Below, piece after piece: positions 2,251 through 61,979 of a stretch of 64,000 nucleotides of DNA (the stretch's first letter is position 1; every line of letters begins with the position of its first letter). This stretch comes from Ulota crispa (lineage: Eukaryota; Streptophyta; Bryopsida; Orthotrichales; Orthotrichaceae): the NCBI GenBank assembly GCA_963920765.1, contig OY987246.1:23383167-23447166 (forward strand), read 5' to 3'. The position numbers were made by a program, and so were the translations under genes. Below the pieces are notes generated by a model that was not told where the DNA came from, made no database searches, and was given only the letters and a program-made list of their open reading frames with translations.

Positions 2251-2497
2251 TTAACCCCTAAAAGATGTTGATGTATTCTATACGTTCTCATGTGTTGTAT
2301 ACGGACAAGGTATATGAGTAGCACATGAATCCCATTGGAGTTGTAAGTTTTAAGCCAAGTCACAAACATACTACTAGTCAACTAGGTTTTTTTGGGGAAT
2401 TTTTGGCATTTGTCATGAAGCCATTTCTTCAAGTACTAAAATGGTTCTTGTATGAATCAGCCAACACTTTTGGTAGGCAACATCCTTTAGGGGTTAA
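2251..2497. mobile_element. piggyBac-like MITE, family A, copy 1
   Basis: This 247-bp unit starts TTAACCCCTAAAAGATGTTG and ends CAACATCCTTTAGGGGTTAA, so it has about 20-bp terminal inverted repeats inside TTAA. TTAA followed by CCC is the end structure known for piggyBac elements. It has no open frame that looks real. A second copy is at 32562-32996, in the same orientation and carrying an insertion. Confidence 0.8.
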
Positions 2498-3275
2498 AAA
2501 GCAAAGACAAAGTCTCTTACAACTTTGCCTTGAATGTAAACCTTCTATACATTTGCATCAGTTTTGTGTATACCTATTTTATTACATTGAAATTTCCTAG
2601 ATGGTTGATCTTTTTACCCCAAAAATTAATTGCTTTTTCCAATTTCTAGCAAGGTCTAGCAAAATGTAAGATATTATAAGTATAGGAACCTCCCTCAAGT
2701 ATTTATTTGTACACTTTTAGGTGTAAGTACCTTAAATGAGTTTTTGTATATGTTGTGGAACAATTTAGCAATTATTGAACTTACTTCTGTAGAATAGTCC
2801 CAACTAGATGGTTTTGCAAGGGAATGAAAAGGGGTGCTTTTGTCCCACTCTTGAAGCCACTAAAGTCTTATTTAGCACGATGCTATTGTTTTTTGGCCTT
2901 GCTTTCATGAATTAGAAATTTTTAATGATAATTATAGTCATTGCAAAATTCATTCTTATACATTATTTTAGAGCAAATTTCTTAGCATTGTTGTAAATGA
3001 CTCATTTGTGGAACATTGTGTACTATCATGGTTAATATTTTGGAATATGTTTTATGGGTTAGAAAGACCTTGTTATGAAGAAACAATAATTACATCTGTA
3101 TTCTTTTGTGTACACATACATCTAATGAATTTTTTATTGGTCTATTAGGAGAAATGAACTTCTGCAACTTTTACGTCCTTGGCAAGTATACACATAACAC
3201 ACCCCTTAACCATTTGAAGGTTTAGGATATTTTCAACTCATCTAAGATTCACTTGATTTGATAATGAAAGATTTC

Positions 3276-3412
3276 ACTACAAGAAAAATTGTTTGCAATG
3301 ATACGTCCAAATTGATTAAAATGTCTAAACTAACAAAAAAATTGACAAAAACATGTCCAAATTGACAAAAAAATGTCCAAATCAGCGTGACCTAATTGAC
3401 ACTACTCCCTTG
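3276..3412. mobile_element. CACTA-type element end with short internal repeats
   Basis: The sequence CACTACAAGAAAAATTG near 3276 is a classic CACTA terminus. It is followed by repeated motifs of the type TGTCCAAATTGACAAAAA. No matching right terminus was found, so only one end is claimed. Confidence 0.4.
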
Positions 3413-4614
3413 TATTGTTTTGAACCACAAAATAAAGAATACAAAGGTTTAACTTTTAAGTTGTTTTCAAGGTACTGTACCATTAGCTAAGCTCTATACC
3501 ATTGGGTTTGCCCATAGCCTTATGTCCACCTCAAACCTCAAGTAAGCTCTAAGTATCTTTTTTAATTATTTTAACCTATCTTGTAAGTACTCAACCCTAT
3601 TGAAGGAGAATTTGGAGCATAAAAAACCAAAACAATGTCCAGCTCGTTTCTCTCATGAGCCATTTTCTAATCTTCTCATTTACTCATAAAGCTTGCATCC
3701 TCTACTTTAAAAACCCAAGTGGTTGTTTGACAACTTCACTAGTTTACTTTCTAATAGAAGGCACTTCTTTGTTATTATTAGTGTGTAAAAACATAAACCA
3801 CATTTCATCTCACAATTTCATCCTTTCAAAAAAGTTGGGGGCAAAGAACTTTTTTGGGCAATTCTTTTGCCATAAACCAGTACCCCATTTTGATATTGGC
3901 TACCCATTTGCTAAAAATATTGGTTAAAAAAGTGGATGGAATTGTCAAAGTCTTCTCATAGAAACATTAGATGCTCGAATTTGAATGAGAGATACTATTA
4001 TTAACTAGTTTTTATACACAAAAATGTACAAATACACAATTTTGTCCATTTTACACTTACTAGCTTGCATTCTAGGACTTGGTGAAAATCACATACGTGC
4101 TTGGGGGGCTAGGGCGGAAAAGCTCAATTTACAAGCAAAGGTAAAAGTAAGAATTTGTCCCTACGTTATAGTTGACCAATTTCATCTCGTTGTGTATTTC
4201 TAGAACAAATCAGGGTTTTTGAATCCTAATACAACTTAAGAATTCTAAAATTCTATATCCTAGTGATGTATTTCTACAAATTTACCTTTTTCTGCCCAAA
4301 AAAAAATCTGAGTTGTGGTTTTAAACTGTGACCCTACAAACACGTATGTGCATGGCAGCCTTAAATTTTGTTTCTTTTTGCTGGTAGTGCGACAGGTACC
4401 CAACAAAATGCCAGTACCCAACAATGCCAGCAGGCAAGGAAAAATTGGACAAAAATGGATAGAATCCATGAGAAGTGCATTCATAAAATATACTAATATT
4501 AGTATCTTTCATCCATATTTTGGCAAATTTGGTGTTTGCTCAAGTAGGCACCTGGCAAAGTCATCCAAATTTTCACCCAAATTTTCTAGTGTTATGGTTG
4601 CTAGACAAATTTAG

Positions 4615-5733
4615 TCAACCCCTAAAGGATCAAGCAAGGGATCAAGTGGTTGTTTAACACACTAGAAGAAAACTGCTTTAAAGTCAACATAAACTACATG
4701 ATGGTTTTTTATTCCCAACACAAAATTCTATGTTTCAAGTGCAAAATTTTGTGTTTGGAACTATAAAATATCATGTAGATTATGTTGACTTCAACATAGT
4801 TTACTTCTAGTGACAGCCACTTGAGAACTTGAGTAGGGTCATATGGAATTGATTTTTATTGGATGTTCTTAAGATTGTTACACAAGGTGTGAATAAGTAT
4901 CTGAAGTGGAAATGTAATTATTTTGCCAATTGGATGCCTAGTTCAAAAGTTATGTTGTCCAAAAGAAATTGGGCAGCTTGGGCAATTTGGGCATCTTTGC
5001 ATAATCTTATGCTAAAACTCTCATCAACTTTTGAAATTTGGCAAGTATATAACTAAAAAAACATAGTGTACAATTGTAAAAAAAAAAAAGCTCTCACATC
5101 ATATTTTGAAGGGAGTCAAACTTTGTTAATTATGTTTGGGTTGTTTCAAGATAAACAAATTCCTCTAACTTTAGGCCCTATTATCTTTCAATTTATAAAT
5201 CCAAAGCTCTTGAAATTTTTTTCCACACATTCTGGATGCTTGTTCCTAACTTTTTGCCATTCAGATTTCAAATAAAAGACTTCCTCATTGCACAAGAAAT
5301 CATGAAAGAATGACTATTGTGTTGCCGATTAATTAAACCTCATTGCATTGCAAGATGATTTAGAATAAGCTAGATTCTATATTTGCATCTGAAAATTTTC
5401 ATGAGTTGGCCTAACATCATATACTTATGAATGGTCAAAAAGCTCAAGTTTTTATAGAGCAAAAGATTTACTCTAGGAAGGCTCAAAAATTGTTGATCTT
5501 ATTATGCAAGAATGAAAAAAAAATGTTTTTCTCACTTCAATCATTCTAATCTTACAATCCGCACAATCAAATGGGCTAAATTTTTTGCACACATTAATTC
5601 ATCTATTTTACACACTTTTGTACAGTTGAAATTGAGAAAAAGGGCTTTTATTTTCAGTTATGGGCAATGCACTAAAAGTAGGTAGTTTCTGAGATTTTTT
5701 CTTCAAAAACACTGTTGGTCCTTTAGGGGTTAA
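4615..5733. mobile_element. piggyBac-like element, family C, copy 6, carrying a nested CACTA element
   Basis: The left end reads TCAACCCCTAAAGGATC (TTAA degraded to TCAA). The right end reads GGTCCTTTAGGGGTTAA at 5717-5733. The unit is 1119 bp. Removing the nested CACTA-type element at 4661-4813 and its 3-bp duplication leaves about 963 bp, close to the other family C copies (907, 944 and 956 bp). The right TTAA at 5730-5733 is also the left TTAA of the next element. Confidence 0.65.
4661..4813. mobile_element. CACTA-type MITE with 3-bp target duplication
   Basis: It begins CACTAGAAGAAAAC and ends GTTTACTTCTAGTG, with long imperfect inverted arms (the left arm contains AAGTCAACATAAACTACATG; the right arm carries its complement). 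It is flanked on both sides by ACA. CACTA termini with a 3-bp duplication are characteristic of En/Spm-type elements. It sits inside the family C element. Confidence 0.8.
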
Positions 5734-5962
5734 CCCTTAACAACCGAAAGACCCTTTGTGACCAATACAATATAGGATATTTTTCTTGTATTTGGAATGG
5801 ATCCACACCTCTACTACATTTGAAACTAACAAAGAAGTTGGAGAATAGATCAATGTGGTTCTAGTGAGCTACTTGAGATCCCAAATTAAAATTTCCTATT
5901 GGTAGCAAGTGACAATTGTACGTCAGTGTATACACAATTCCCTATGGTCGTTTAAGGGTTAA
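5730..5962. mobile_element. piggyBac-like MITE, family B, copy 1
   Basis: The 233-bp unit starts TTAACCCTTAACAACCG and ends CGTTTAAGGGTTAA. Inner sequence (such as TTTTTCTTGTATTTGGAATG and GATCCCAAATTAAAA) recurs at 14346 (inverted) and 32782. Its left TTAA is shared with the preceding family C element. Confidence 0.8.
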
Positions 5963-6353
5963 ATGCTGGTGCACGGTACCAAGGCACATTCTAGTGTGCA
6001 TGTAAATTGCTTTTTCTTTAGTAGCATGGACTATTTGTCGAAGTAGCACTTGGGGCACCATTTTAGTGATCATTGTTTGGGAAGAAATTTGAGCTATCCC
6101 AGCTGAAATCAAGCATTTTCTATTTTCAACTAATTTTTTACAAGCACACATCAGATATTTCTTATCAAATTTTCATATTTATTCTCTAACATACTATAAA
6201 AGTTTTTGGTGAAAGAATTGGCCTGTGTTTTATCCAATAGTTTCAAGTTTCAACCAGTTTTTTTACAATTTCAATAGGCAGACGATATACTAACTGCTGG
6301 TCCAATTCTCCCTAGACCTTAATAGTGATCCCAATTGAGATTTTCATAATGAA

Positions 6354-6903
6354 GGGCTGCTTCACTCTATGGCCAATCAAGTTGAGAAGCTATGTGATTG
6401 ATTGAGAGACAAACTTTTTTTAGAGGCCAAAGAAATGGGCTGAAAATAGGCAATAAAATATTGTTTTTGGCACCTTTGGCTGCCATTTGTGTGAAGCCTC
6501 CAAAGACCAAGTCCAAAGGCCAAATTCTTGATAATGAACTTCCACAACCTCTCAACTTGAAATGACCATAGTGTGAAGCCTCCAAAGGTCAAGCCCAAAG
6601 TCCAAAGTCACAACATTTAGTATACCTTCCAAGTCTAATAACCAAGATCTTGTTGGCTTTTGATTATTTTATGAAAAAAAAGTGATGACTTCTCAACCAT
6701 AGTTTGAGTCTCCATTTTTGCATGACCAAACTTTTCTTGAGAAGCCATCATTTTGGATGAAAATATGATGTCATAAGGGTAAGAGACTTTGAATTTTGTC
6801 CTCTAGTGTGAATGATCAAGAAGCCAAACTCTCTTCATTTCTTGCAATTTGATAGGTGAGAACCCACGATCTTTCAACCTTTGGCCATAGTGTAAAGCTG
6901 CCC
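6354..6903. mobile_element. PIF/Harbinger (Tourist)-like element, copy 1
   Basis: It begins GGGCTGCTTCACTCTATGGCC and ends GGCCATAGTGTAAAGCTGCCC, followed by TAA. Internally it repeats GTGAAGCCTCCAAAG blocks. It is the diverged sister of the element at 11897-12559, whose ends and TAA duplication are intact. Open frames inside it are not conserved and are not taken as genes. Confidence 0.7.
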
Positions 6904-7199
6904 TAACTCTCCAGTGCCTGCACTACTAAATATGCGAGAAAAAAAAAAAAAATCCAAAATTTTAAATCTACAAAATGAATTGTTAGCAGTTTTGCAAAAA
7001 ATTGTACACGTTTGTAGAGACTGATGCATACAACGAGGTACTCAAACACTGTGGGCCTGGCAGGTCCAGAGGGGTTCTGTTTGTTGCAGAATTATGATAT
7101 GGTGTACCCTTTCCTTCCCTTTAGTCTGAGACTGCTTTGGTCCCCAACCTCACGGCAGTTCATACTTTTGTAGGTTGTCTGATGTAAAGTGGTTGTAAC

Positions 7200-7276
7200 T
7201 CACCCTCTTTGTCCCAAAGTCCCCCCCCCCCAAAGAAAAACCAAAAAGACCAACAAACAAACAAACAAACAAAAAG
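7200..7276. repeat. Poly-C run and AAAC microsatellite
   Basis: A run of ten C bases near 7220 is followed by five tandem AAAC units (about 7255-7273). This is simple sequence. Confidence 0.9.
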
Positions 7277-7383
7277 GTGTTGGTACAGCATACTTTACAC
7301 TCGAATTTTTTCACGAGCTAAGATATCTTGAAGAGGGTTCTCCCCCCTTCACGTTGCAATATCAATACACTGAATATTGCGTT

Positions 7384-7634
7384 TAGGGTGCCCCACACTA
7401 ATTTCTTGACATTTTACACTACATAAATATTTACTTTATTGCAACTACAGCAGTTATTGAAATAAACAAACTTTAAAGGGCGGGGCAAAAGCATTGAAGT
7501 TGCAAGAAAAACAAATAATAGCATCCATGTTGTAAACCATGTGAAATCCTATATATAGAGAGTTGCATGCATCCCCAAGTGGTCAAGTAATGAGTCATGA
7601 GGTAACTTTTTAGGGTAAGACAATCTAATTATTT
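7384..7634. repeat. Dispersed repeat family G, copy 1
   Basis: About 250 bp starting near GTGCCCCACACTAATTTCTTG and containing TGAGTCATGAGG near the end is repeated in the same orientation at 14098-14346. No terminal inverted repeat was recognised. In this copy the site where the second copy carries a TTAA insertion reads ATTTAAG, uninterrupted. Confidence 0.75.
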
Positions 7635-8610: not shown

Positions 8611-9566
8611 TTAACCCCTAAAGGCCCATTGTCCCCTCGGGGGACAAATGGGATTTTGGGCAGGTATTTATGGCTAAACTACTTTGCATGACATTCTGAA
8701 TCTTTTACTAAAGATGGGGAATTATAAGATCTGCGTAGAAATCTAGTTTTTCCTTCATTCTGACAATTTTTGAAGAAGTTATGCATGAATAACTGAAAAA
8801 CGGGGAGAATTGGGCAGCAAAAAAAAAGTGCAACTTTTCTAAATAAAATTTTGAAATTGGTTCTTTAAATTTTTATGTATTTGGGAAGTTTTGAATCATT
8901 CAATTCTGATAGATGAAATGAAAGTTATGAGAAGTTTTAGTTTGCAGGTAGGTATGGGACTCCCAAACCTCCATTCCATTTCCCCCTTGTAAAACTTGTT
9001 GCTTTACTTTTTTGAGCTCTTTGTGTATTTTTTTTTTGACCTTTTTTTTTGCAAGTTTTAGTAGACTAAGATTCCTTGGTTTTCACCATCTGGATCAAAG
9101 TAATTTGGGTTTTTGAATTTTACATAAATCCTCCAATTTTGCCTAGTGTATATGCAAATTTCATGACCTTAATGCATTGCAGGATTTTACAAAGTATAAT
9201 CCACACCTCCGTTTCATTTGAAAATTCTCTTGCATTTACCTAACTTGGTCTTCTACATGGGAAAAATAAACTTCAATTTTGCGCAAAGCAATTTTTTTGA
9301 TATAGGAGTTGTCAAAGGCTTTTGAAATTTTTGAGTAGCAAGGAAATTTTTTTTTGTTTTCACTTCAAATGTCAATATCTCACTCCTCTACAACTAGATT
9401 GAGCTGATTTTTTTCCCACAAGTACCTCCCATATTCTAGGGCAAGATCTTATTGTTGGATTTCCAAAAAATAAAAAAAATAAAAAATAACATTTCTCCTC
9501 ACTCCCCAAAAGTGGCTATTTTGAGTGATTTTCACAAAAAAAAGGGCTTGGGCCTTTAGGGGTTAA
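8611..9566. mobile_element. piggyBac-like element, family C, copy 1
   Basis: The 956-bp unit runs from TTAACCCCTAAAGGCCCA to TGGGCCTTTAGGGGTTAA, an 18-bp terminal inverted repeat apart from one indel or mismatch. Just inside the left end is a small stem, GTCCCC/GGGGAC, that also occurs next to the right end of copies 43010-43916 and 61036-61979. It has no transposase-like frame, so it is non-autonomous. Confidence 0.85.
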
Positions 9567-17312: not shown

Positions 17313-20300
17313 ATGGAAGGTCTGTCGAAGATTGCTGAGGGCTCGTCCACACATTCGCAGTCGACACGTGTGTCGATGTTCGAGGAGGTTACGCAGTCTG
17401 GTTCCTTCAAGGTCGGAATAGAGAAGAAATTAGAACATCGTAGGAACCTGGTTCACAAGTTATCGCATTCAGGAGGGAGCAATGGTCGTACTTTTGATTT
17501 GGAGGACATAGCTTCTGGATCGAACGGTTCTCACGTCACAAGCACGGATAGAGCATGCCGAGTGACATTGACAATAATCGCTGCAAAAGATTTGAAACGA
17601 ACTGCGACTGGTCCCGACGCCAAAGATCCTGTTTTCAAAGTTCGAGTGGAGCAAGTATTGAGAAAATCAAAGGACATTAAGACTGGAATCAATCAGGTAT
17701 TAACAGATATTATGTAAGAACAGTTTGTGCAGTAGATTTGGTGGAATTCCTCTTTTATTTTGCACTGGCTGCTTCCCGCCTTTTACTGCTTGGTTTGGGC
17801 ATACACAATATTGACTACTTTTCAAATAAAAACAGAGCATATGCCACTGTTTGAAGATGTAGTTGGACATGTAAATGGCGATTTTTTGACTGTTTGTTGA
17901 AACCTTTTTAGCAGTCGAATTAATTCTGAATGAATTGCTATGTTACTTTTTGCGGTCAAAATTCGATAATCCTTTTTGGAACTCGCGTTGACAGCCGTCT
18001 GTCATATGCTGTTTCTGATTCTAGAAGTGGTGATTGCCTGTGTAGAAGACATATTCTAAGTCACAAGGAAACTCTGGTTGGTTACCTGCAGGATGGAATC
18101 CTTAATGTGAACCAGAGCTTCACTTTTGATGTTAGGGATTTGAAGACTGCTCACATAACACTTCAAGTTGTGGCAAGGGGAGTTCTTGGTATCGAAGAAG
18201 CCCTTGGGCATATTAACAGTCTCTGTGTCCTGAACTTGCTTGAGGTAGAAATCTGGGTGCTCCATCATCTTTCTCTTTATTTTCTGGCAAATCCTTCGTT
18301 GGTGATTCTCTTGCTGAATAGTTCAAAGAAGGTTCATGAAGAAAGAACTATCACTTTAACTTTGTGATATTACTTGAATTTACACAACGTGTTGCAAACT
18401 CCTTTCCATCAATCTTCTTCTTTAGTTGTTGTTTGTAAGTAAATTTGTTGACACAAAGTGGTATTAACGTTTACGTTGAAAACCGACATTAACAGGAGCA
18501 AGGTGGCCGGAAGGATGTGCAAATCAACTGGTATGATCTCTACTCTAAGAGCGGCAACAGAATTATGCCTGGAAAGCTGCAAATGCAAGTCATCGTTGGT
18601 ATGGCAGAACCAGAGCAGACTATTTCGGCGTTTGTGGGCACCTGGAACGTTGGAAATGCTCGGCCTCCGGCAGATCTATCTCCTTGGCTACCTACCGACG
18701 CCTCTTTTGAGATCATTGCCGTAGGAACTCAGGAATGTGACTATCCACCCCGAGCTCCGTTTACGGAGTGCAGCAAAGACTGGACGCATACGTTAAAAAC
18801 GCACTTTGGTGAGCGTTACAAGCTTGTTCATGCGACATCACGTGGGCAGATGCGACTTGTGATCTTCGTCCGTGATGATGCTGAGAAGGCAATCTCTGAA
18901 GTTGATAACGACAGTGAGGCAACAGGAGTAGGTAATGTTATGGCGAACAAAGGAGGTGTATGCATAGCGTTCAAATTCTGGGACACAGGTTTGTGCTTCG
19001 TGAACTGCCACTTCGCTGCTCACGTTGGGCAGTGTGAGACACGCAACAGCCATTTTAGGCAGATCGCAATGTCAATGCGAGTCGGACTAGAAAGCATGGA
19101 TTTACTCAGTCAGTTCCACCACGTATTTTGGCTTGGAGACCTGAATTACAGGTTAGACTTTGGGAAACTGGAGCCTCAAGGGACAACTCCTGATCGGACA
19201 TTCTGGGCGACGATTGTAAAGCAAATTCATGCGAAAAGGTGGAAAGAACTTCTCAACTATGATGAGTTGCGGAAGGAGAAAGGGGCCTCACGTATACTCG
19301 CCGGTTTCAAAGAGGGAGAGATAACGTTCCCTCCTACCTTTAAGATGCAGAGGGATTATTTAGATCACTACGATCAAAAACGAATGCCTGCATGGTGCGA
19401 TCGTGTGTTGTGGAAGACCTTACAAGGATGCCATTCTTATCTCATTTCGTACTTTTCTGCCCCCAGCATCGTCACCAGTGATCACAAACCAGTGGGTGCA
19501 ACGTACAAACTGACGTCATATGCACTGCCTTCATCGACTATGATTCCTGCGGGAACCGATGAAGATGATAAGAGGTGTGTGCCTGTTTTTTCCCCTTCTG
19601 TTAATGTTGCTGTCCCTAAAACCGCTCTTACATCAGTCTGTTATCGTTCTAGCAAGCTAGTGGCCCTGTAAATGTAAGCTGCATACTTTACAGATGATGG
19701 AGTCCCCTTCTTGTGCCTTTCTACCCCATTTATGTCCAAGCTGAAGTAGGAACAAGTTGGGCCTGTAGTCGCAGCAGGCACGTGTTGCGACTTAGTTGAG
19801 AATTATCCGAGATCTTTATAGTCAGGAGATTCAAGCATGCCTGCTGAACCATCGTTCATGTGTACTAATGGCATCAGGCTTTGTGCTTCGTAACTGTGTG
19901 GCCTAGACATGAGTTCATTACTTCTGGGAACGTAGCCAGGTTAATTACTGATTGCCTGACTGGTGCATCAATTTTCAGGTGGCACATCCGGTTCACGTCA
20001 CTGCGGGCTAAGAAGCTGCGAGCCTCAAACATCAACGGTTTCTCAGATCCATACGTCTCGTTCGTGGGTCCCAATCTGTTGCAGGAATTTCATTCGAAGG
20101 TGAAACACCAGACTCTGAATCCGGTATGGAATCCTTTTCAGGAACTTCCCACACTGGTTTTGAGTACGTTCCCCCTTCAGCGAGTGGACAAGGAGTACTT
20201 ACTGGTCCGAGTTCTTGACCACGATTCGGATGAAGACGCACTAGGCTATGGAGTCATACCGTTGGGTCAGGCTGTGGCCGCCTTCAAGACAGGTGTTATG

Positions 20301-20492
20301 GAGGTCGCACATTTCAAGGTCAACCTTTCCCATCACGGTCTACCAGCCGGTACCTTAGAAGGGGGCATGAAACTTACCTGGGAGAAAAACGTGGTAAAAA
20401 GGAAAGGGTTGATTTCAGGAGACTTCTCGAGTCGGGGAACGAGCATCAGAAACTCTCTAAAAAAGAAAATATTTGTTCGACGGATGCCTTAG
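17313..20492 (+). CDS. Inositol polyphosphate 5-phosphatase with N- and C-terminal C2 domains
   Basis: Model: exons 17313-17696, 18092-18244, 18496-19574, 19979-20492; 2130 nt, 709 aa; all junctions keep frame. Residues about 75-220 look like a C2 domain (ACRVTLTIIAAKDLK, QSFTFDVRDLKTAHITLQVV). Residues about 222-515 are the 5-phosphatase domain with every hallmark present: GTWNVG 227-232, GTQE 256-259, NKGGV 330-334, WLGDLNYR 391-398, PAWCDRVLW 477-485, SDHKPV 507-512. Residues about 540-670 form a second C2 domain (INGFSDPYVSF, TLNPVWNPF, LLVRVLDHDSDEDALGYG), with calcium-type acidic residues. The tail is basic (KRKG, SLKKKIFVRRMP). The enzyme class removes the 5-phosphate of phosphoinositides and inositol phosphates; two C2 domains suggest action at membranes. 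Substrate is inferred, not shown. The exon 2 donor (GAG then GTAGAA at 18245) is the least certain junction. I know no C2-phosphatase-C2 layout in Arabidopsis. Confidence 0.9.
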
Positions 20493-25195: not shown

Positions 25196-25274
25196 TTAAC
25201 CCCTAAATGCCCAGGTTACCAAAATGTGGTGTTTTTAACACTGAAATTTGGCACCGTGGACATTTAGGGGTTAA
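25196..25274. mobile_element. 79-bp piggyBac-like micro-element
   Basis: It starts TTAACCCCTAAATGCCC and ends GGACATTTAGGGGTTAA, so 17-bp terminal inverted repeats with one mismatch make up over 40% of the unit. The core repeats the arrangement in short form (GTGGTGTTTTTAACAC). Confidence 0.8.
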
Positions 25275-31100: not shown

Positions 31101-33458
31101 AATATAATAATAGCAACCGAATTCAACACGTTAGGCATTCCTACCGACTACTGCATCTGTATCTAGAAATGAGGTCTCAAACCACGTATAGCGAGATTTT
31201 CCAGACATAGGTACAAGTACTTGGTTCTAAAAAGGAGAGCTTGACCAATCAGACACCTGAGAGATTTCTGATAAAAAGCTCTAATAACAGTGACTTGTAA
31301 ACTTTAGCAATAAGATATCGTCCAGATCATGTTTAGCAGAAACGTCAGTAGAAAACCGACAACATGCTCGTGAAGTGTCGTCTTTTAGTCTAGTAACCTT
31401 AAACCCTAAACCCCTAAAACTTAAATCCTAAATCCTGAATCCTAAATCCTAAAACTCTCCATGCCTTGATTGGCACCCTGCTCGATATTAAGAGTGTGAG
31501 GGTGAGAGGAGGACCTGAGTAGAAGGCCAGCTGCTGCGGTGGTCACTAATGGCAATCTCGCCGGCGCCAATGACCTCCTGAATGAGCTGCAAATCACGAA
31601 TCAGGGAGCCCGTGAGAGTGGGCGACGGCACTCGGTAGCACCCGCTCCACATGTGCGCCGTCATGCCCTGCTCTTGCAGCGCCGCCACTTTCACTCGCAG
31701 ATTCTCCAGACTGTTCTGTACAAGAGCATGCCACGGCTCTCCATACGTCATCTACGGAAGAAAATAACTAAAACACATTGCTGCTCTTAACCCCGCCCCT
31801 GAAAAAGATTCTAAAATGGTCACATTTGATAAGTTTGAACGATCCCTTCCTCAAGAGGCGGCTTATGTTTAACACATTTTTCTCATGCAAAGTCGTGACA
31901 CGAGTGTTGATGTATGCGATTGTACAGATTCTGAGAAGCTAAAGAAGAACTGGATGTTGATTGTGGCGCTTGCTGGAAACTGAACCATTTTCTGAACATA
32001 GACGGCTTCTGTTTTACCCAAGAATAGGAACCAACTTTCTTTTCACTCCACAAAAACACAACTACGCCCATAAGACTTCATCATTCCAGTTTCGTAACAG
32101 TCTAGTGCACTTGGGATTGAGCACCCTTTTCCACCTTCTCATACCGTTGCAAAAGCAGATTGGAAGAATATTCAGTTCCTGTAGAGACTTGGGTAATAAG
32201 ACTCTAAGGGTATGTTCACACTTGGTGTCAGGAGGGTACTAGCAATATGGATGCATTGTAAAGGTATGTCCAAATGCATCCAAATAACATCTAATTTTCC
32301 TTCGCTACAACCACTCTTAACAACAAGTGTAAACATACCCTAACCAATTGACAATGCCATTATGCCAGTTCCACTCAAAGGAAATCTAGATGTATTGCCA
32401 CATGCGAGTTTTTTGAGGGTGTTGAGGGAGCTGCTCTAGACTAAAACATTGCCTTTGCAAGAAAACCACTCCAAACTAGTTTGACCGAGCCAGAAGTGTG
32501 ATCTTCACAAAGATCGAGATGACGAGGGACCACCTGTACACCGAGATTGCAAAGACACAAGTTAACCCCTAAATGATGTTGCTGTATCGTATACGCTCTA
32601 CATGTGTTGTATACGGTTGGGGTGTTTGGGTAACACTTGAATCCCATCGGAGCTGTCAATTTTAGGCCGAGTCATAAACATACTACCGGTCAGCTAGGAT
32701 TTTTTGGGGAATTTTTCACATTTGTCATAAAGCCATTTCTTCAAATACTACATGGTCCTTGCATGAATACATGCAACACTTGTAACCTTTAAACGACCAA
32801 CCGACTGCCGTAAGCAATACAATATGATGTATTTTTCTTGTATTTGGAATGCATTCAAAGAAGTTGAAATATAGATCAATGCGGTTCTAGTGAGCTAGTC
32901 AAGATCCCAAATTAAAACTTTTTGCTGGTAGCAAATACTCGTTATACAGCAGCGTACATACTATGTCCTAAATACGCAACATTCTTTAGGGGTTAGGAGG
33001 GTTAAGCCAGAGTTTGCGAACCTGCGGGAGACGCAGTCGGTGCCCAGGATGCCAACGACGGTGGTGATGCCGGCGTCGAGAAGCTCACCAACGGTGGCTT
33101 CGGGAGTACGGCTGGCAGGCCCCATCTCGCCGCCTCCGCCCGTGACGTGCACGTGCATGTCGATCAGTCCGGGCACCACGAAGCCACCTTGCGCATCCAC
33201 CACCTTCACCGGCAACCCCGTCAGATTCGCCACGGCATAATCCTCCGGCAGAATGGACACGATGGAGCCCCCTCCTGTCAGAATGAGACCCCGCCCGATG
33301 GGCGATGGCGTGTACAGGCGCCCATTCGTAATCAGCAGCATCGGAGACTCCGCTCCCGCTACTGCTCTCGCTGCTGCTGTTGTTGGTGCTGTTGTTGTGA
33401 GGGCCACGGTGGACAAGAAGAGCAGTGTGCAGATGGCGATGGAGACTGCCATGGCCAT
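28165..33458 (-). CDS. Isoaspartyl dipeptidase (IadA-type, M38 amidohydrolase) with signal peptide
   Basis: Model in order of translation: exons 33458-33022, 31710-31515, 30426-30229, 29610-29286, 28427-28165; 1419 nt, 472 aa; every junction is in frame. Residues 1-37 look like a secretory signal (VSIAICTLLFLSTVALTTTA). The rest follows E. coli IadA closely: GLIDMHVHVTGGGGE (metal ligands H102, H104), GTDCVSRSLENL across intron 1, ISDHRSSWPS, RVGGMLSGKAG (K229, the carbamylated lysine position), IPTHVSS (H267), LSSDAFGS (D325), GADADILIL near the end. E. coli IadA is about 390 aa; here there is a leader and a short C-terminal extension. The family hydrolyses beta-aspartyl dipeptides from damaged protein. 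I could not place the remaining histidine ligand. A secreted or vacuolar location is inferred. The exon 2 acceptor at 31711 was chosen by frame and homology. Confidence 0.9.
31391..31462. repeat. Degenerate telomere-like repeat inside a dipeptidase intron
   Basis: About 70 bases consist of CCTTAAA, CCCTAAA, CCCCTAAAA, TCCTAAA and TCCTGAA units in tandem, all variants of the plant telomere unit CCCTAAA. They lie in the intron between exons 2 and 3 of the dipeptidase gene. Confidence 0.7.
32205..32343. mobile_element. Tourist-like MITE in dipeptidase intron 1, TAA duplication
   Basis: The element is 32208-32340 (133 bp), from GGGTATGTTCACACTTG to CAAGTGTAAACATACCC, a 17-bp inverted repeat with one mismatch, flanked by TAA on both sides. 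Ends and duplication fit PIF/Harbinger or Tourist. Confidence 0.8.
32562..32996. mobile_element. piggyBac-like MITE, family A, copy 2, with nested family B element, in dipeptidase intron 1
   Basis: It starts TTAACCCCTAAATGATGTTG and ends CAACATTCTTTAGGGGTTAG (final TTAA decayed to TTAG). It follows the 2251-2497 copy closely except for a family B insertion at 32782-32974. Without the insertion it is about 242 bp, matching the 247 bp of copy 1. Confidence 0.8.
32782..32974. mobile_element. piggyBac-like MITE, family B, copy 3 (nested)
   Basis: It begins GTAACCTTTAAACGACC (a decayed TTAACCCTTAAACGACC) and follows the 5730-5962 copy in the same orientation (TTTTTCTTGTATTTGGAATG shared) to about 32974. 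The right end is eroded. Confidence 0.65.
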
Positions 33459-34053
33459 CGCACTCCTAGGTATTCTGCAATGGCTCAGAATCGTGAAAGG
33501 CCTTAAGTTGCCGGTTCGGGATACATTGCAGAATGGCGGAGGCTCTCCACAATGTTCTTTGCAAGGTTTGTCACCTACTGCAACTAGAGCATCGTCACAG
33601 ATGAATGCTAAAGATCGACACCAACGTCAAAACTAATAACCCCGACTTCAATTTTCCAGATCGAAAAAGCCTAAGTTTAGTGCAGTGTGGTGGGTATCGC
33701 TAGAGCAGGAACTACGAGAGTCGAGTAAGTTAATGCAAATAGCTTTCGTAGCTCCACGAGACAGCATCAACGTGTCGGTGAAGCAGTGAAGCTCACAACT
33801 TCAGTTCGTGAGAAGAAGGCAGCTGACCAAGCACTCCAAATCGCAGGAGAGATGGCACATCCGGCCCTCGGCGAGCACAAGTGGCGCATGCTGAGAGCAT
33901 CTCCACCCAGCCGCGCAACAGCGAACTCCGAGAACCAGATGTCCAGGGCGCATCCAACCATGAATTTTGAGTTTGTAGTAAACTTTCTCATATTTAGTTT
34001 TAAAGTTTATTTATTAATCCCAAATCAAGGAAACCAAAGAGGTAAAAGAGTTG

Positions 34054-34432
34054 TTAACCTATAAACGTCGACAAGAACAAAAATTGTCTTTTGGATTCCG
34101 AAAAACGCTCTGTACTGTAAAGAAAAGTGGTTTTTCACGTGAATTTTTTGTAGAAGTGATCATAGATACATGGTGCACCATGGAAAGCAAAAAATAATCT
34201 TAGCTAAGGTACTCATATTTTTTGATAACCTAAATTGTGGGAAGATTCAAAGCCTTGGTGTTAGGTCCCATGCTACTCTTTTTGCAATTTTCATGAGGGC
34301 ACCAATTGCACCATGCACTATTGACTTTTGCAACTTTAAGAAACAATATTTTGATGATGGGCACTAGCCACAACACTCTAGAATCCACTGTAAAGGGCAG
34401 GCACAGTCACCCAACAGGCGTTCAAGGGTTAA
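34054..34432. mobile_element. piggyBac-like MITE, family F, copy 1
   Basis: The 379-bp unit starts TTAACCTATAAACGTCG and ends GGCGTTCAAGGGTTAA. Its inner sequence (TGCAATTTTCATGAGGGCACC, GCACTATTGACTTTT) is shared, inverted, with 53317-53666. Confidence 0.7.
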
Positions 34433-43009: not shown

Positions 43010-43916
43010 TTAACCCCTAAAGGACCATGGCCTTTATTTTGTCAAAAGACACTCAAAACTGCCACCTCTATGGTAAAGAGTAAAAAAGTTTGAAAATTAG
43101 GCATTTTGCATATCTAACCGTAGGATCTTGTGCTAAACTACTATAAGAATGTGTCATACAAAACTCAAGAACTTTGACCGCACAGATTGGAAGATATTTG
43201 CATTTAAAAAGTAAAAAACAACTTTTTTTGCACCTTGCTTGATTAGATTTTTTAATTTTGAACATTTTTAACTTAAAATTTTTGCACCACAGAGTTCAGA
43301 ATTCTATTTTTGCATGGTGGGGAGTTGAGTTGGGAATCTTGGGAAAAATTTTCAAAAAAGAATACTTAATTTTCATTCTTTAAAGAAACATTAGGTAGAA
43401 GAAGGTATGAGATTGAACAAAAACTTAAATTGCTAATAACCGTGCAAAGAAATTGAAACGCAATAATCCCAATGGTGAGATTGTTCTAGAAAGCAAACTT
43501 CACCCTCTCCAATAATTTTTTTTGGAAAAATGTTAAATCTGCATTCAAAGATGAAGTTTATAAGTTATTTTTTCAAGAAGATGCTTGAGTTGCCCAAAAA
43601 ACAAGATTGTCCATAACTTTCTCATAACTAGTCCAAATGGAATGAATCAAAGCTTCAGAAGTAACTAAAGATATAATCTATGAGAAAATGAAATTAAATT
43701 TTTTTTCAAGTTTTTATAAGAATTTTTTTTGCTTCCCCTAGTCCCCAAATTTGTGCTTATTTGGGCATAACTTTTGCTCCTTAGCATCAATTGGAATAAA
43801 AATTATATTCCCTATCTTCAAAAAAGTTTCAAAAAATTAGGAAAAAAATTAAGACCATAGGTACATGCCCAAAATCACATTTGTCCCCCAAAGGGACTAT
43901 GGTCCTTTAGGGTTAA
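43010..43916. mobile_element. piggyBac-like element, family C, copy 2
   Basis: The 907-bp unit runs from TTAACCCCTAAAGGACCATGG to CTATGGTCCTTTAGGGTTAA. A GTCCC/GGGAC stem sits just inside the right end (TTTGTCCCCCAAAGGGAC). It is AT-rich without a transposase frame. Confidence 0.85.
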
Positions 43917-52497: not shown

Positions 52498-52873
52498 GTA
52501 GCATAATGATAGTTTCAAATAAAAATTCAAAGTTGGACTGCTGCTGTATATTTAAAAGGTCAAGATGATCAGGAGTATCTTGTAGAGATTGTTGCGTCTG
52601 CTATTGGTGTTGAAACGTCAATTGTGATTTCATTTTATTCTGCAATAATGAAACTGCTAATGGGAGACTGAATCCACGCCTACACTCGTATTGTACCTTT
52701 AAAGTGATTACACTTTTCATGGTCTCCTTTGGAATGCTTACCTCTAATTTAGCATGGAAAATGCCGACAAGCAAAACGTCCAAAATGATGAGTGATGGAA
52801 GGGGTAATAACAATGTGGAGTTGGTGACCATTTTGGGTATGTTTTGGGTCTATATGAAGTAAGTTTTTAACCC
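52498..52873. other. 3' UTR and spacer after the kinase gene
   Basis: Moderately AT-rich sequence with no further gene; probably the 3' UTR at first. Confidence 0.5.
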
Positions 52874-53320
52874 TTAACCCCTGAGCGCCCAGTCGACATT
52901 ATACTGTTGATGGGCCCATAAACTTTATCTCACTTTTTCTCTCAATCCGTACGGTGAAAATAGTCATGGTTGGTCCCCATTAGCAAAGAAGGTAGTCCCT
53001 TTTTCAAATCCTGCGATCACTTCTCTGGATGTAATTTTCCAAGCTGTGGTGGCCACACTAGTAGAAACCCGTGTTTTTCTTAACGCATTTTTTTGGACGT
53101 TCAATTTTTTTAATGTTATAATTGATGTTAAAGTTAACATCTTAATGTTATTTTTGATGTCAAAACTAACATCTTTGTGTTATGTTTGATGTCATTATAA
53201 ACACACAAAAATTTGGACGTCCAAAAAAATGCGTTAAGAAAAACTCGAGTTTCTACTAGTACCATTAAACCCCCCATTTTCTCCTAAATCCTAAAATAAC
53301 TCTAGGTGCTTAGGGGTTAA
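52874..53320. mobile_element. piggyBac-like MITE, family D, carrying a CACTA element
   Basis: It starts TTAACCCCTGAGCGCC and ends GGTGCTTAGGGGTTAA. The unit is 447 bp; removing the nested CACTA-type MITE and its duplication leaves about 238 bp, close to family A length. The right TTAA is shared with the next element. Confidence 0.75.
53053..53264. mobile_element. CACTA-type MITE, palindromic, CCA duplication
   Basis: The element is 53056-53261, from CACTAGTAGAAACCCGTG to CGAGTTTCTACTAGTA (the last base mutated from G), flanked by CCA on both sides. It is closely similar to the unit at 25660-25865 across the whole palindrome (TAACATCTTTGTGTTATGTT and its complement). Confidence 0.85.
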
Positions 53321-53666
53321 AGGACGGATGGATCACCGTGGCTTGCCCTGCCTGTAGCATTCTACAGTGTTTTGCACATGGGCACCAGTAGTATTGCTTC
53401 AAAAAGTTGAAAAAGTCAACAGTGCATGGTGCCCTCATGAAAATTGCAAGAAGGGCAACTCGGGAGCTAACACCATGTATCACAGTTTGGGTTACAAAAC
53501 AAAATGAATGTATCTCAAGAGATAATTTTTTGCCTTCCATGATGCACTTACGCATTTATGATCACTTCTGAAAAAAATCAAATCAAAATCAGTATTTTTC
53601 TAAGATACAGAGTTTTTTTTTGGAGGCAAAGGACGTTTTTCGTCCGTGCCAATGTTTAGGGGTTAA
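53317..53666. mobile_element. piggyBac-like MITE, family F, copy 2 (inverted)
   Basis: It runs from TTAA at 53317 to AATGTTTAGGGGTTAA. Inner sequence (GTGCATGGTGCCCTCATGAA) matches the complement of 34054-34432. Its left TTAA is the right TTAA of the family D element. Confidence 0.65.
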
Positions 53667-54749: not shown

Positions 54750-54839
54750 CAAAAAAAATTATAAAAATTGGTTTAGTCATATGTACATGCTTGAGGTTCA
54801 TTTGTCCCTCAAGGGGATAGTTAGACTTTGAGGGGTTAA
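54750..54839. mobile_element. Right end of a family C-like element (copy 5, left end unresolved)
   Basis: The end reads TTTGTCCCTCAAGGGGATAG, then ACTTTGAGGGGTTAA, the same arrangement as the right ends of copies 43010-43916 and 61036-61979. I could not locate its left end. Confidence 0.5.
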
Positions 54840-55688: not shown

Positions 55689-56043
55689 CCCTGCTTCAGG
55701 CTGTTTCTGGGGGCTCATGGACACTGCTACTAGTAGATGGAACATCTTTTTCCATTCACTGAATCTTGGAGTTTTGTGAAGTGGAAATTCCATCAACCAT
55801 GAAGAGATTCTACTAGTCTCCCAAAAAAGTGTGGAATATTAACATGGACCCATGAAAAAGGCCATTAGGCGGTTGGCTTAACAAGCAATCAAGCACTTTT
55901 AATATGTTTATTATATTTACATTCATCCTTTTAATGCTTTTGGGTGAACTCTGAATACTGTCAAAAGATGAAAATTTCAAAAAATCTTCAAAATAATGCC
56001 AACGGATGAATTTGTAAAGGCTTGGACACACTAGCAATTCTGC

Positions 56044-56955
56044 TTAACCCTTTAGAGGCCACCGAACCATATTTTGGTTCGAGAGAGTGGTTTTCCGCTT
56101 ATAGAGTAAAATCCTTCAACAATTTGGAAATTGGTTTTGAAGAACGCTTGTGTTTACAAGAATTTTATATCCAATCACACAAAAACAATGAAATCAGGCA
56201 TGTGGGTTGATAAACAATGATGTTTATACGGCATGGCCTCAAAATACGTATCCATATTTGGCCAAAGATGGATCAAAGTAACAACACAATACATCAAACA
56301 TTCAAGAAAAATGTAAAATTTCAATTGTGCGGTACTAAAAAATTTCAAATTCCTCAAGAAATATGCTTGTATTGTTTCTCTATACGGTAGTAGTATAATT
56401 GTAATATTTGAAAATCTATTGAAACGGTGCTATCATTTCACATTGAAAATACGTTATCCTACATTTAAAGCCAATTCTTCATTGTTTTCATTGTTTGGAT
56501 TTTCCATAGCATTTACTAATTTTCTTGTGAAATTGTTTTTGGGTAGCTAATAAAGTGGGATTTTTGACCCTTTTTGTCCACTTAGCTACACCTTGTGATT
56601 GCTATTTTTAACCACTTTGTGTGAAATTAGTCTCATTGGAAAGTTGAGAAATCCTACTTTTAAAAAGTATAAGGCTCTTTTCAAACAAAGCTTGTATGAA
56701 GTAGTAAGATCCAAAACCACACAAGCACAAAAACTAGTGATTTTCTACCTACAACTGACTCAATCATTATAATATTTCACCTCCAATGGTAGATCTAGTT
56801 GAAATTTTGATACTTTATGGTAAACAAGGTGTAGTTTCCATTTGTACGATTGGATTATTGAAATCAGGTCCATATTTGATTCAACCGCACATTGAAGTTT
56901 ACTACCCCGGTTTCTAATGAATTTGTGAAAATGTGTGTGGTCTTTAAAGGGTTAA
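56044..56955. mobile_element. piggyBac-like element, separate 912-bp family
   Basis: It starts TTAACCCTTTAGAGGCCACC and ends GTGGTCTTTAAAGGGTTAA, about 19-bp terminal inverted repeats with a few differences. The inside differs from family C. No transposase frame is seen. Confidence 0.75.
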
Positions 56956-56988
56956 GGAATTTTGTGTTATAGTAGTTTGGTAGTGAGA

Positions 56989-57167
56989 TACAGTAGTGCC
57001 TCCCTAAGATGAACCTTTATAAAGAAAAACACTTGACTAAGATGAAGTAGATGATTGTCCCTGGTGGTTGAGGAGCTACAAAAACTTATTTAGTTACAAT
57101 GAATGTTTTCCTTACATGAAAAGAATATGTTGTCCGGATACCTTCATCGTATCCAGGCACTACTGTA
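56989..57167. mobile_element. pogo-like (Tc1/mariner) MITE with TA duplication
   Basis: The element is 56991-57165 (175 bp), from CAGTAGTGCCT to AGGCACTACTG, with TA directly outside both ends. CAGT-starting ends with a TA target fit pogo-type elements. Confidence 0.7.
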
Positions 57168-57820
57168 CTAAGGTTCATTGTAATAATGTTTCATCAAAAT
57201 CTGCTTGCATGAATCACAGTGCCAAGGTTCAAATGCTACATTTGACTGTGGGCATTATTTTACCTTTAGAGTATATGCTTTGTCCTTGAATGTCAACCTT
57301 TTGATAATTTCTACTATCATGAACGTGTTCCGATGAATTTGTTTGGTGTGGCCTATACAAGCTTAGCACTACACCAATAACAATATTTAGTGTTGACAAT
57401 ATTAATTACAAATTGCAACATCAAATGTCAAAATAAATACTATTACTCAATTGCATTTTCATTAATCTTTTTAAATTAGTATCATAATAGTTTAGCTTGC
57501 ACTCAAACTTGCACTAAGTAGTATTCAACATTGTCACTAATTTTCAACAAGAACATTACTTAATAACTAAACAAGAAGTAGAGTGAGTCAAATTAAACGA
57601 TAAACAACTCCATATGCAATCTAACAATAAATATCATCATTGGTATATTGGCAATGCTATTGACATCATGGGCTTGGTTTATGCACACATACATGATGTT
57701 GGACCACGGTGGAAAAGTTTTGCCTGTGTATATGTTAAGAAATGTAAGAGTTTGGATGTTTACCATCAAGAGATTGAATTTAGAGATTTTGGATTCACAT
57801 TTTGATTCAAAATTCCTGAT

Positions 57821-59654
57821 TTAGCCCCTAAAGGATCAATCTATATTTTTTTGGCAATATAGCAGTTTTGAGCAGGTATGCAATGAATGGAGATTTCATT
57901 TCATTTCTTGAAATCTTCACAAATGATGTGTCCAAGGAGTAGCTTTAAAGTCCAAATTTTTTCATAACTTTTGACTAAGTTCAAGAGTTATTGCATGATA
58001 TGTAGTTTTCTTTGAACTTTGGGCAGCTTGTGTAGCTTTGAAACATCACTTTTTAAGAAATATAAATTTGAAATTGGTTTTTTAGATTTACAATGACTCA
58101 CAAAATTGTCTAATTGTTTGCTTTGAAGCCAAGTTTTTTTCCGTATTTCCACTATACAGTGACAAATTATAATTGGCTTTTTATTCTTAGATTTTGTTTA
58201 ACTTGATCCTTGTGCAATCATGATCAAGTATATACCAAATTTCAGTTACTAAAAACCAAAATCCTATTATTGGAAAATTATTTTGAGTCAAAATCATAGT
58301 TTTAGAAGAAAGTTGATTAAAAAACATTGGTGATGAATTTTTGAGATTTGATTGCATAGATATGTAGGAGACATCCATATGCACATCTTTGTTTCAAACT
58401 AACATTTCCAAAAAGTTTCAAAATTCCTTCTATAGAGATTTTAATGTTATGGTGATCATGACCAAATTCAGTAAAATAGATAATTCTTCATGAGAATTAG
58501 TTTTTGGCAAAATAAACATATTATCATGTCTAAATGTACAAACTTAATCACATTGTATATGCTATTTTGCCAAAAACTAATTCTCATGAAGAATTATCTA
58601 TTTTACTGAATTTGGTCATGATCACCATAACATTAAAATCTCTATAGAAGGAATTTTGAAACTTTTTGGAAATGTTAGTTTGAAACAAAGATGTGCATAT
58701 GGATGTCTCCTACATATCTATGCAATCAAATCTCAAAAATTCATCACCAATGTTTTTTAATCAACTTTCTTCTAAAACTATGATTTTGACTCAAAATAAT
58801 TTTCCAATAATAGGATTTTGGTTTTTAGTAACTGAAATTTGGTATATACTTGATCATGATTGCACGAGGATCAAGTTAAACAAAATCTGAGAATAAAATG
58901 CCAATTATAATTTGTCACTATATAGTGGAAATACGGAAAAAAAACTTGGCTTCAAAGCAAACAATTAGACAATTTTGTGAGTCACTATACATGTATGTTG
59001 AATGCTTTGGATCATTCCATTTTTATCAGTGAGATGAAAGTCATGATGAGTTTTTGTTTGCGGGCAATTATGGATTCTCTATTGTAAAACAAACTTTGAA
59101 GTCCTTTACTTTACTCAATTTCTAATATATTTGAAAAAAAAATAGAACTAACAGATGTAGAGTTTTTATTGCAGCATTATTACTATTGGGAATGGGATTG
59201 GTATTTTTCATTTTCATAATTAAATTCTTAACAATTTAGTGTTTGGAATCGTTCTCTACTTCTTTTTACTTACTTTTTTTTTTACCAATGTGTTCAATTC
59301 CAAATGATATGAAAATTTTCAAGTTTGTATCCAACTTGCATTGAAGAATAAGTCCAAAGAGTTACAACTATTTTGAATTTTTTTCATACAAATGCAACCT
59401 TGTGAAGTGCAACTATTTGGGTTTTTGCAAGGACAAAAAATGACTTTTTGTCAATTCAAACTCAAATATTTTGCAATCTACAAGGTGAAAATTTCTGAAT
59501 TTTTTTCCACATCTTTTGAAACTAGTGTAATACAAGATTTTAAGAGTACATTTGTCCAAAAGTAATTTCTTTAAAAAAAAGTTACTTGTTCTATAGATGG
59601 TAGTTTTGTATCAATTTTGATGAAAACTTAGTCAAAAAAACCTTTAGGAGTTAT
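57821..59654. mobile_element. piggyBac-like element, family C, copy 4, carrying a long fold-back
   Basis: It starts TTAGCCCCTAAAGGATC and ends CCTTTAGGAGTTAT, both slightly decayed. The unit is 1834 bp; subtracting the 891-bp fold-back leaves 943 bp, the family C length. Inner stretches (GGATCATTCCATTTTTATCAG) correspond to the family C copy at 8611. Confidence 0.65.
58094..58984. repeat. Near-perfect fold-back, arms about 421 bp, loop about 48 bp
   Basis: The left arm is 58094-58514 and the right arm 58563-58984. I found only about five differences between them (for example CACAAGG against CACGAGG, and CTGTATAG against CTATATAG). A transcript crossing it would form a very long hairpin. The identical 65-codon frames on opposite strands are simply the two arms and not genes. 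Confidence 0.9.
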
Positions 59655-60549
59655 TCTAGAACCCACAAAGTGAAATATAATTAAACTAAGCCAAAATAAG
59701 GTGCAATTATTACTTTTACGCTTGCTTGTAAGAAACGCTAAAATATTTCACCCTGGCCCGGCAGTAAACCACGCCGTTGACTTTTGGCAACATCGAAGTA
59801 TGTGCTGTAAAGCGAGCCGTTGACATTTTAGCGTCGAATCCCAAGCACTTGTTGACCCAGCTTTTAGTCAAAGGGCCGGTGCAACTGTGCAAGTGAGGAT
59901 GGGGAATTGGGGATTGGGGACCATGTGATTAAAGATGCTTGTTCAAATGGCCCCAAATTTTTTTCCCGTTTCTTAATTTTGATTTTCAATGGACAGAAAT
60001 GGGGGTTAACGCTCTCCAAGAGGATAGCCTTATCCTTGCCGAATGAGAAAATCTCCAAATTAGGCAGAGCTTAGTTTTTCTCGGGATTTGTGACATTTGT
60101 CTAAACTTTGTAATCTTCTTCTGAGGTTTAGAAAGGTAAAAGTCAAACTGTGCTTAAGAGACCTAAGGCCCACAATTAGTGCTGATTGAGGATTACTGTG
60201 CCTGTGTTTTAGCGGTTCACACTTCACACCTACCCCAAGATCCAAGTCCCACTGAAATCATAAAAGCCTGGTTGGTCGAGAGGTTGAAAAAGCAAGGGCC
60301 ACTTACTTGTAAGAGTCAAAGGCCATAAAATTGGGGTCATTTGAGCCAAACTCCAGTCCAAATGATTTGGAGAACAGACTGAAGAGCATCTCCACCACAT
60401 TGGTAATTTCTCATCTAGTGAAACGTACTGAATAGAGTTGACTTATGATTTCCCAACCATGTAATTAGGTAAAATAGTGCTCAACCAGTAACAAGTCTCC
60501 TTGCTTGAAAAGTATATAGACTCTTCATCATTGCTTCCTCAACTTATTA
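59655..60549. other. Gene-free stretch
   Basis: 59740-60250 has more balanced composition than its surroundings but contains no convincing exon on either strand. Confidence 0.4.
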
Positions 60550-60886
60550 CCGTAATGCTTGGTTAATGTCAACCTTTGTAATAACATCAATTGGATAAGA
60601 TCACAGCCTTACTCCCCTTTTGTCCAAAACATGTATTATGAGCTTGGTTAAGATCAAGTGCTTGCATATGGTCAACATTTGCTTTTCATCAATGCCCATT
60701 TTTACTCATCAATTAGAAAGGCGTTTGGTTAGTGTACCAAAAACATGGGTGGGAAAGCACCTCCAAAGTTGCAACCATCAAAACTAGGGAAATTAATGCA
60801 AATGGAGTGTTTGTTTATGATCAATGCTTGGATAGGGTCAACGCTTTTTTCTAGCCCAAGGTGTTGACCTTATCCAAGCACCACTG
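60550..60886. mobile_element. Possible pogo-like element with sub-terminal hairpin
   Basis: The right end GGTGTTGACCTTATCCAAGC continues CACCACTG and is followed by TA. The left end CCGTAATGCTTGGTTAATGTC looks like its decayed complement preceded by TA. A 20-bp inverted copy of the end lies at 60825-60844, making a tight hairpin to 60880. Confidence 0.5.
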
Positions 60887-61035
60887 TAATTGATAAAAAA
60901 AAAAAGTAGTATATTAGAGGAGTTGCCATGCAATGAAAAATGCAAATTTTGGAGTGCAAGGAAGAATCTTTTGGCAGGCCGGAGCATGAACAGCCTCCCT
61001 TTCATCCAAAAGTGTAGCTAACATGGTATTTTACC

Positions 61036-61979
61036 TTAAAGCCTAAAGGACTGAGCCATTTTTTCAGTGAAAATCACTCAAAATTGCCACTTTTGGGGGG
61101 TTAGTAAGAAGGTGATTTTTTTTTTAAAATTTGGGAAATCCAACCGTAGGATCTTGCCCTAGACTAGATTAGGTACTTGTGGAAAAAAAACAGGTCATTC
61201 CAGATGGAGATGGGTGAGATATTTACATCTAAAGTGAAAAGAAAAGTTTTTTCATGCTGCCCCAAATTTTCAGAAGCCTTTGACCACTCTTATTACAAAA
61301 AATTTGCTCTACGTAACTTTGCGCTTTATTTTTCCCATGTGTGAAATCAAGTTAGCTATGTGTGGGAGAATTTTCAAATCAATTGGAACTTTACAAGACA
61401 TGGGAAATCATAGTAAGTAAAAAGAAGTAGAGAATGAGTCAAATCACTAAATTGTTAAGAATTTAATTATTAAAATGAAAATTGCAAATCCTAATGGTCA
61501 AAATGTTGTGATAAACAATCTACTTATGTTAGATTAATTTTTTTTCCAAAATAATGAAAATTGAGTAAAATAAAGGACTTCAAAGTTTATTTTAGAGTAG
61601 AGAATCCATAACTGATTGCAAACAAAAACTCCTCATAACTTTGATCTCATTGATTGAAATTGAATGATTCAAAGCTTCTCACCTAAAAAATAATCTAAAG
61701 AACCAATTTCAAATTTAAATTTAAAAATAAAAATAAAAAAAATAAATTAAAGAAGTTTTTGGGCTGCCCGGGCGGGCAATCCTCCCTTGCTTTTCAAATT
61801 TTCTTGCATAACTTCTTCAATAATTGTCGGAATGAGGAAAAAATTAGATGCCTGCGTAGATCTTTGAATTCCGCACCTTCAATAAAAGTTTTGGAAAATC
61901 ACATAAAGCAACTTATCCAAAGGTACATGCCCGAACTCCCACCTGTCCCCCGAAGGGACAACAGTCCTTTAGGGGTTAA
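61036..61979. mobile_element. piggyBac-like element, family C, copy 3
   Basis: It starts TTAAAGCCTAAAGGACTG and ends CAGTCCTTTAGGGGTTAA. The 944-bp unit is largely the complement of 8611-9566 (AAAATTGCCACTTTTGGGG corresponds to CCCCAAAAGTGGCTATTTT). The GTCCCCCGAAGGGAC stem lies inside the right end. The frame at 61759-62103 crosses the element edge and is not a gene. Confidence 0.8.

Follow-up and report, generated by a model that had tools for sequence, protein, structure and literature searches.

The piggyBac superfamily of DNA transposons is best documented in animals and has become a standard genome-engineering tool. Its members transpose by a cut-and-paste route that passes through hairpins at TTAA and leaves 4-nt overhangs; whatever DNA carries the ends can serve as a substrate. 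Animal genomes also carry piggyBac-type miniature inverted-repeat transposable elements (MITEs): short, non-coding, with TTAA/CCC ends, in many size classes and at high copy number. The stretch analyzed here (hereafter the window), 64,000 nt of chromosome 5 from the moss Ulota crispa, contains a series of TTAA-CCC...GGG-TTAA units that resemble these animal elements in ends, shortness, non-coding character, size classes and copy number, but in a land plant host. With high confidence, they are interpreted below as miniature piggyBac elements that cannot move on their own (non-autonomous) and were mobilised in trans by larger piggyBac elements, 5.0–5.7 kb long, in the same genome.

The Tourist and Stowaway MITEs of plants are likewise miniature inverted-repeat elements at high copy, with terminal inverted repeats (TIRs) that differ from those of the moss elements. 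Unlike the moss elements, they duplicate TAA/TTA or TA, according to the available part of one source (PMC10004981). The piggyBac superfamily itself appears in several plant inventories, each available in part: it is listed for every group under study, among them land plants (PMC4438587), named among angiosperm MITE superfamilies (PMC10004981), and represented in C-Fern by 1,230 fragments and 122 kb (PMC6890710); plants are also mentioned for it elsewhere (PMC10813416). A 2022 land-plant transposon review and its survey table do not include it in the text available (PMC9033089). The statement in a preliminary description of the window that piggyBac is not a standard part of land plant annotation is broadly right without being absolute, since some papers do list it for plants. 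These entries concern the same superfamily; in the text available they are lists or a table line, and none shows a transposase together with its ends. Among the matches listed from the open-licence literature on piggyBac in land plants and bryophytes, no title or abstract opening describes moss piggyBac elements, and a demonstration that covers transposase, ends and empty sites in a moss is likewise absent. The superfamily seen here is a known one; what is unexpected is how abundant it is in a moss, and an accessory domain comes in addition. That abundance implies that plant repeat annotation can miss a whole class, and provides a setting in which to ask whether piggyBac was ancestral to land plants, was lost in flowering plants, or was acquired.

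Transposases and ends in the Ulota crispa genome

The genome searched comprised 274.8 Mb in 157 contigs; assembly cbUloCris4.1 (GCA_963920765.1) is given as 408 scaffolds and 275.0 Mb in the available part of its description (PMC11803377). PF13843 (DDE_Tnp_1_7) has 120 matches, the best at E 1.3e-73 (254.5 bits); scoring covered 116 of 528 candidates, and most scored copies contain stops. None of 14 control genomes has a match, a weak control in that the kinds of genomes are not all shown. Chlorophyll-binding genes (PF00504, 56 matches) share contigs with many of the transposases; the host of those copies is therefore photosynthetic, and they are not on a contaminant contig.

Ten transposase loci were read. 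One of them, L034, matches piggyBac chain 6x67_C (E 1.8e-17) and piggyBat chain 9c0f_C (1.2e-11), the alignments including the TIDE, DNFF, and GVDxxDQ motifs; the piggyBac chains (6x67/6x68) represent the Trichoplusia ni protein. For L034 the catalytic residues were placed by formal alignment to a solved chain, and for the other loci by motif; in the first eight loci, the four positions (presumably equivalent to D268/D346/D447/D450) are Asp in 8, 7, 7, and 8, with Asn instead at the second position of L033 and the third of L029. A C-terminal Cys-rich pattern follows the core in half of the loci (L030, L031, L035, L036, L066), although in L036 it is in a different frame than the core and in L066 directly after a stop. 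L034 has a variant of the motif, and it was not found in L029, L032, L033, or L065.

Three of the ten loci (L030, L036, L066) have both TTAA-CCC-type ends (Table 1). In L066 and L032, which are in different places, similarity ends 5 bases before both 3' termini. L030 and L036 have a 16-bp end type in common, TTAACCCYTSAYYGCC, which occurs 1,305 times genome-wide (627 + 678), with none (0 + 0) for its control. Among 100 places listed, all on contig C1, neighbouring pairs less than 6 kb apart comprise 21 inward, 0 outward, and 0 same-strand; 13 of the inward pairs are of 637–663 bp, four of 952–982 bp, and the others of 79, 774, 1386, and 3717 bp. The ~650 and ~950–980 bp pairs look like putative miniature elements that carry the transposase elements' ends.

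The ends themselves are abundant. The sequence TTAACCCYTAAA is found 39,919 times in the genome (19,961 + 19,958), some 50-fold above its reversed control (792; 397 + 395). Their arrangement was examined in a 264-kb set made up of the window together with 200 kb from contig C1 (C1:520001-720000; C1 element coordinates below are offsets within this segment). The 85 CCCCTAAA words in this set are preceded by T, T, A, and A in 74, 71, 76, and 73 cases, and beyond these four bases there is no conservation. When ends were scored on positions 5–22 only, with weights derived from TTAA-starting ends of the same DNA, TTAA was present on both sides in 27 of 41 inward pairs. Loci were cut out around the first eight matches in the genome, and all of them have an inward partner end, giving spans of 232–1452 bp; the chance of such a partner is estimated at roughly 0.4 per locus, ends being dense. 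No wider target site duplication (TSD) of the hAT or Mutator kind (8–9 bp) was seen by eye beyond the TTAA in the flanks of 24 pairs, some of them >3 kb and perhaps mispaired.

Judged by sequence, transposase relics are abundant in this genome, some are bounded by TTAA-CCC...GGG-TTAA, and the miniature elements have the same kind of ends; the larger elements very probably moved them. The transposase that these larger elements encode would be of the DDD type; a cysteine-rich motif often lies at its C-terminus, and six of the ten loci have an extra N-terminal domain. By analogy with known piggyBac biology, the transposase would cut at the TTAA/CCC border via hairpin intermediates, and the element would enter a new TTAA with no need for gap-filling synthesis. 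A substrate would require nothing but the ends, which would account for families that are unlike inside yet keep their ends: short, end-only derivatives could have multiplied and diversified internally. The likeness to the Trichoplusia ni element extends to the DDD core with aligned catalytic motifs, the C-terminal Cys-rich domain, the TTAA target, and the CCC-starting inverted repeats. The moss elements with both ends are larger (5.0–5.7 kb, vs. ~2.5 kb), an additional conserved N-terminal domain is present in six of the ten loci, and all ten are damaged or incomplete.

Several stretches of transposase are free of stops: C2:36765124-36766008 (+) and C2:36779670-36780554 (-), an inverted pair with equal scores, and C2:34594948-34595949 (L031). 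These could possibly be domesticated genes or younger copies. In L034, a long tandem repeat (4573-5193) reading (HTYI)n is found shortly after the transposase core.

Empty sites and competing explanations

Unoccupied sites were sought by joining the flanks of 37 elements; each search scored 40 candidates, so the yield is a lower bound. Junction-crossing matches, representing unoccupied paralogues, were found for at least six of the 37: eight paralogues were read for C1:71784-72746; seven for C1:26115-26760, one of them in the window; ten for an element in L003; two each for C1:6583-7229 and C1:56696-57636; and one place, L006, for the window element at 52874-53320. All paralogues read have the 4-bp site once, or less where a small deletion hits it. 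In occupied copies TTAA flanks the element on each side, C1:26115 (GTAA/TTAA) being the exception. In the window case, the terminus TTAACCCTTAAAGGACGG of an older element (52867-53666) is recovered once the flanks are brought together at a single TTAA, and the rejoined sequence has 93% identity to L006 over 160 bp. The rejoined junction also matches 21 other listed places in the genome at 91–99%; these span it by only 5–18 bases on the left side, because the TTAA sits 7 bases inside the end of the older element.

The preliminary description had assigned the units to piggyBac from their ends alone, and had pointed to empty sites with a single TTAA, and to a DDE_Tnp_1_7 transposase flanked by the same ends, as the evidence to look for. 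Both bear its inference out: PF13843 is abundant in the same genome, with three loci bounded at both ends, and for six of the 37 elements no paralogue read has more than one copy of the 4-bp site.

A number of observations weigh against a piggyBac origin of the units. The majority empty site is not TTAA in four of the six families: it is CTAA in seven of seven paralogues, CCAA in nine of ten (the tenth GCAA), TTGA in two of two, and TCAA, or TC with a deletion, in six of eight (the other two TAAA and TA-A). These majority sites are one or two C-to-T or G-to-A steps from TTAA; the simplest reading is that TTAA targets were created by decay of methylated repeat copies before insertion, and it is possible that the TTAA was brought by the element's own overhangs. 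For the GTAA/TTAA copy with CTAA paralogues, a TA duplication needs one change fewer. Where ends are dense and nested, as in the 264-kb set, their pairing shows only a modest inward excess (neighbours within 2.5 kb: 41 inward, 31 outward, 40 same-strand). Both ends were not found in six of the ten transposase loci (L029, L032, L033, L034, L035, L065) in the ~6.3–7 kb read, and a seventh, L031, shows ends only with decayed flanks. No undamaged full-length transposase element is present among the ten, and the four bounded ones share a single 140-bp match (71%) with the window and the 200 kb of C1. Lastly, neither Kolobok, Sola nor mariner transposases were among the families searched in the genome.

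This last point bears on two other sources for such ends. Duplication of TTAA is not unique to piggyBac, being known in other superfamilies as well, and the units might belong to one of these (Kolobok, or some Sola elements), with the piggyBac transposases present by coincidence. Sola has been reported for Physcomitrella, in the available part of the review cited above (PMC9033089). What makes this explanation very unlikely is that TTAA-CCC ends of the same kind enclose piggyBac transposases, and that miniature families share the 16-bp ends found on L030 and L036. Tc1/mariner-like elements with ACCCC...GGGGT termini, a TA duplication and a preference for TTAA targets would produce the same strings: at an empty TTAA site, a TTAA duplication with CCCC...GGGG and a TA duplication with ACCCC...GGGGT are identical, and cannot be distinguished on that basis alone. 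The GTAA/TTAA copy fits TA slightly better. TTAA is chosen over TA because the transposase with such ends is of the piggyBac type, and because all four bases are equally conserved, the outer T and A like the inner ones; a mariner-like origin is likewise considered very unlikely.

It could also be supposed that the ends are telomere-like or chance motifs whose pairing is coincidental. The usual plant telomere unit is CCCTAAA, which the core of CCCCTAAA resembles, and the window contains a 54-bp TAAATCC tandem array (31400-31453, 7.6 copies) whose unit is presumably related to it. The probability of this is practically negligible: set against it are the 50-fold excess, the inward pairing of family-specific ends, and the homologous copies extending from end to end, which refute it.

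A conserved domain upstream of the transposase core

A conserved domain of ~100 residues (WRYLxxRQIAxLLGW) is encoded upstream of the piggyBac core (L036:1122-1481, L030:989-1300, and L051). With a 79-residue query from L036, 65 matches were found in the genome, itself included. Thirty-three of these have a scored core 1.5–4.5 kb downstream on the same strand, none has one upstream or on the opposite strand, and ~0.2 would be expected; for the remaining 32, no scored core lies within 8 kb (412 of the 528 core candidates being unscored). A profile of the domain matches six of the ten loci. It was built with three of them (L030, L031, L036), so that L029, L033, and L066 (~42 residues) are independent matches; L032, L034, L035, L065, and the window have none. 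Neither of the two copies scanned has a Pfam match. The AlphaFold model consists of five helices, at moderate confidence (pLDDT 76), with no PDB fold match at E<=0.001.

This appears to be an accessory domain, not matched to a described one, and offers a clear point from which to ask what the transposases of plant piggyBac elements have gained. A broader proposal can be made tentatively: mosses may have their own piggyBac lineage of large two-part elements, whose transposase gained a helical N-terminal domain (WRYLxxRQIAxLLGW) not known from animal piggyBac, and which gave rise to tens of thousands of miniature copies. If so, it would be a major overlooked class of bryophyte transposons.

Units in the window and neighbouring open frames

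Thirteen units with TTAA-CCC...GGG-TTAA ends had been listed in the preliminary description. Seven have exact TTAACCC...GGGTTAA ends and five are degenerate at one or both; the thirteenth, 53317-53666, begins TTAAAGG and was wrongly bounded, being the right part of the older element at 52867-53666 (Table 1). The units occupy 8,841 bp, or 13.8% of the window. Six (5730, 8611, 25196, 43010, 56044, 61036) have copies outside the window that match essentially end to end at 75–89%, and the boundaries of these six are therefore element boundaries. The moss units are best read as transposase substrates of the kind described above, mostly old (75–89% between copies), with one younger family at 91–99%. 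As had been stated, no transposase is evident in the window: there is no PF13843 match there among the scored candidates (116 of 528; 412 unscored).

Table 1. Probable piggyBac-type elements in the window (window coordinates) and transposase elements with identified ends (coordinates within each locus).
Feature	Position	Length	Ends	Remarks
Non-autonomous element	2251..2497	247 bp	Exact; TTAACCCCTAAA(A/G)GATGTTG	83% to 32562-32781
Non-autonomous element	4615..5733		Degenerate; left TSD TCAA	Right TTAA common with 5730-5962; its positions 199-1119 match C1, L003, L004 at 83-85%
Member of 233-bp family	5730..5962		Exact; TTAACCCTTAA(C/A)	(Nearly) end-to-end C1 matches, 85-89%
Element	8611..9566	956 bp	Exact; TTAACCCCTAAAGGCCC	End-to-end C1 copies, 76-79%
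Element, mostly inverted repeat	25196..25274	79 bp	Exact	End-to-end 79-bp copies in C1
2251-family element	32562..32996		Degenerate; right TSD TTAG	
52867-53666-family element, uninterrupted	34054..34432		Degenerate; CCT left, weak TIR	69% over 383 columns to rejoined 52867-53666
Element	43010..43916	907 bp	Exact; right TIR one base shorter	End-to-end C1 copy, 86%
Older element, split by later insertion	52867..53666		TTAACCCTTAAAGGACGG	Replaces listed 53317-53666
Element inserted at TTAA within terminus of 52867-53666	52874..53320	447 bp	Exact	In-window empty-site case
Element	56044..56955	912 bp	Exact; TTAACCCTTTA(G/A)AG	End-to-end C1 copies, 75-85%
Apparently composite element	57821..59654		Degenerate; TTAG/TTAT	Separate inner parts match separate places
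Element	61036..61979	944 bp	Degenerate; left CCC decayed to AGC	End-to-end copies, 78-83%
L030 transposase element	262-5288	5,027 bp	TTAACCCCTCATCGCC / TTAACCCTTCATTGCC	
L036 transposase element	496-5597	5,102 bp	TTAACCCTTGACCGCC / TTAACCCTTCACCGCC	
L066 transposase element	195-5850	5,656 bp	TTAACCCATTAAGGA / TTGACCCTTTAAGGA	One flank TCAA
L031 transposase element		5,506 bp	Matching 13-bp TIR CCCCTTAGGGCCC	Flanks decayed

Open frames are also found in the window. One at 18493-20489 (+ strand) resembles inositol-polyphosphate 5-phosphatases (Exo_endo_phos2, E 2.7e-65), and a C2 domain (E 8e-11) comes after this match. Another, at 32964-33626 (- strand), has an Amidohydro_3 match (E 1.3e-7), with the element at 32562-32996 overlapping its edge, and a frame at 29281-29703 matches Amidohydro_1 weakly (E 0.12). 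Elsewhere in the genome, eight chlorophyll a/b-binding matches with near-equal scores are located within 380 kb of each other (C4:21391382-21771811).

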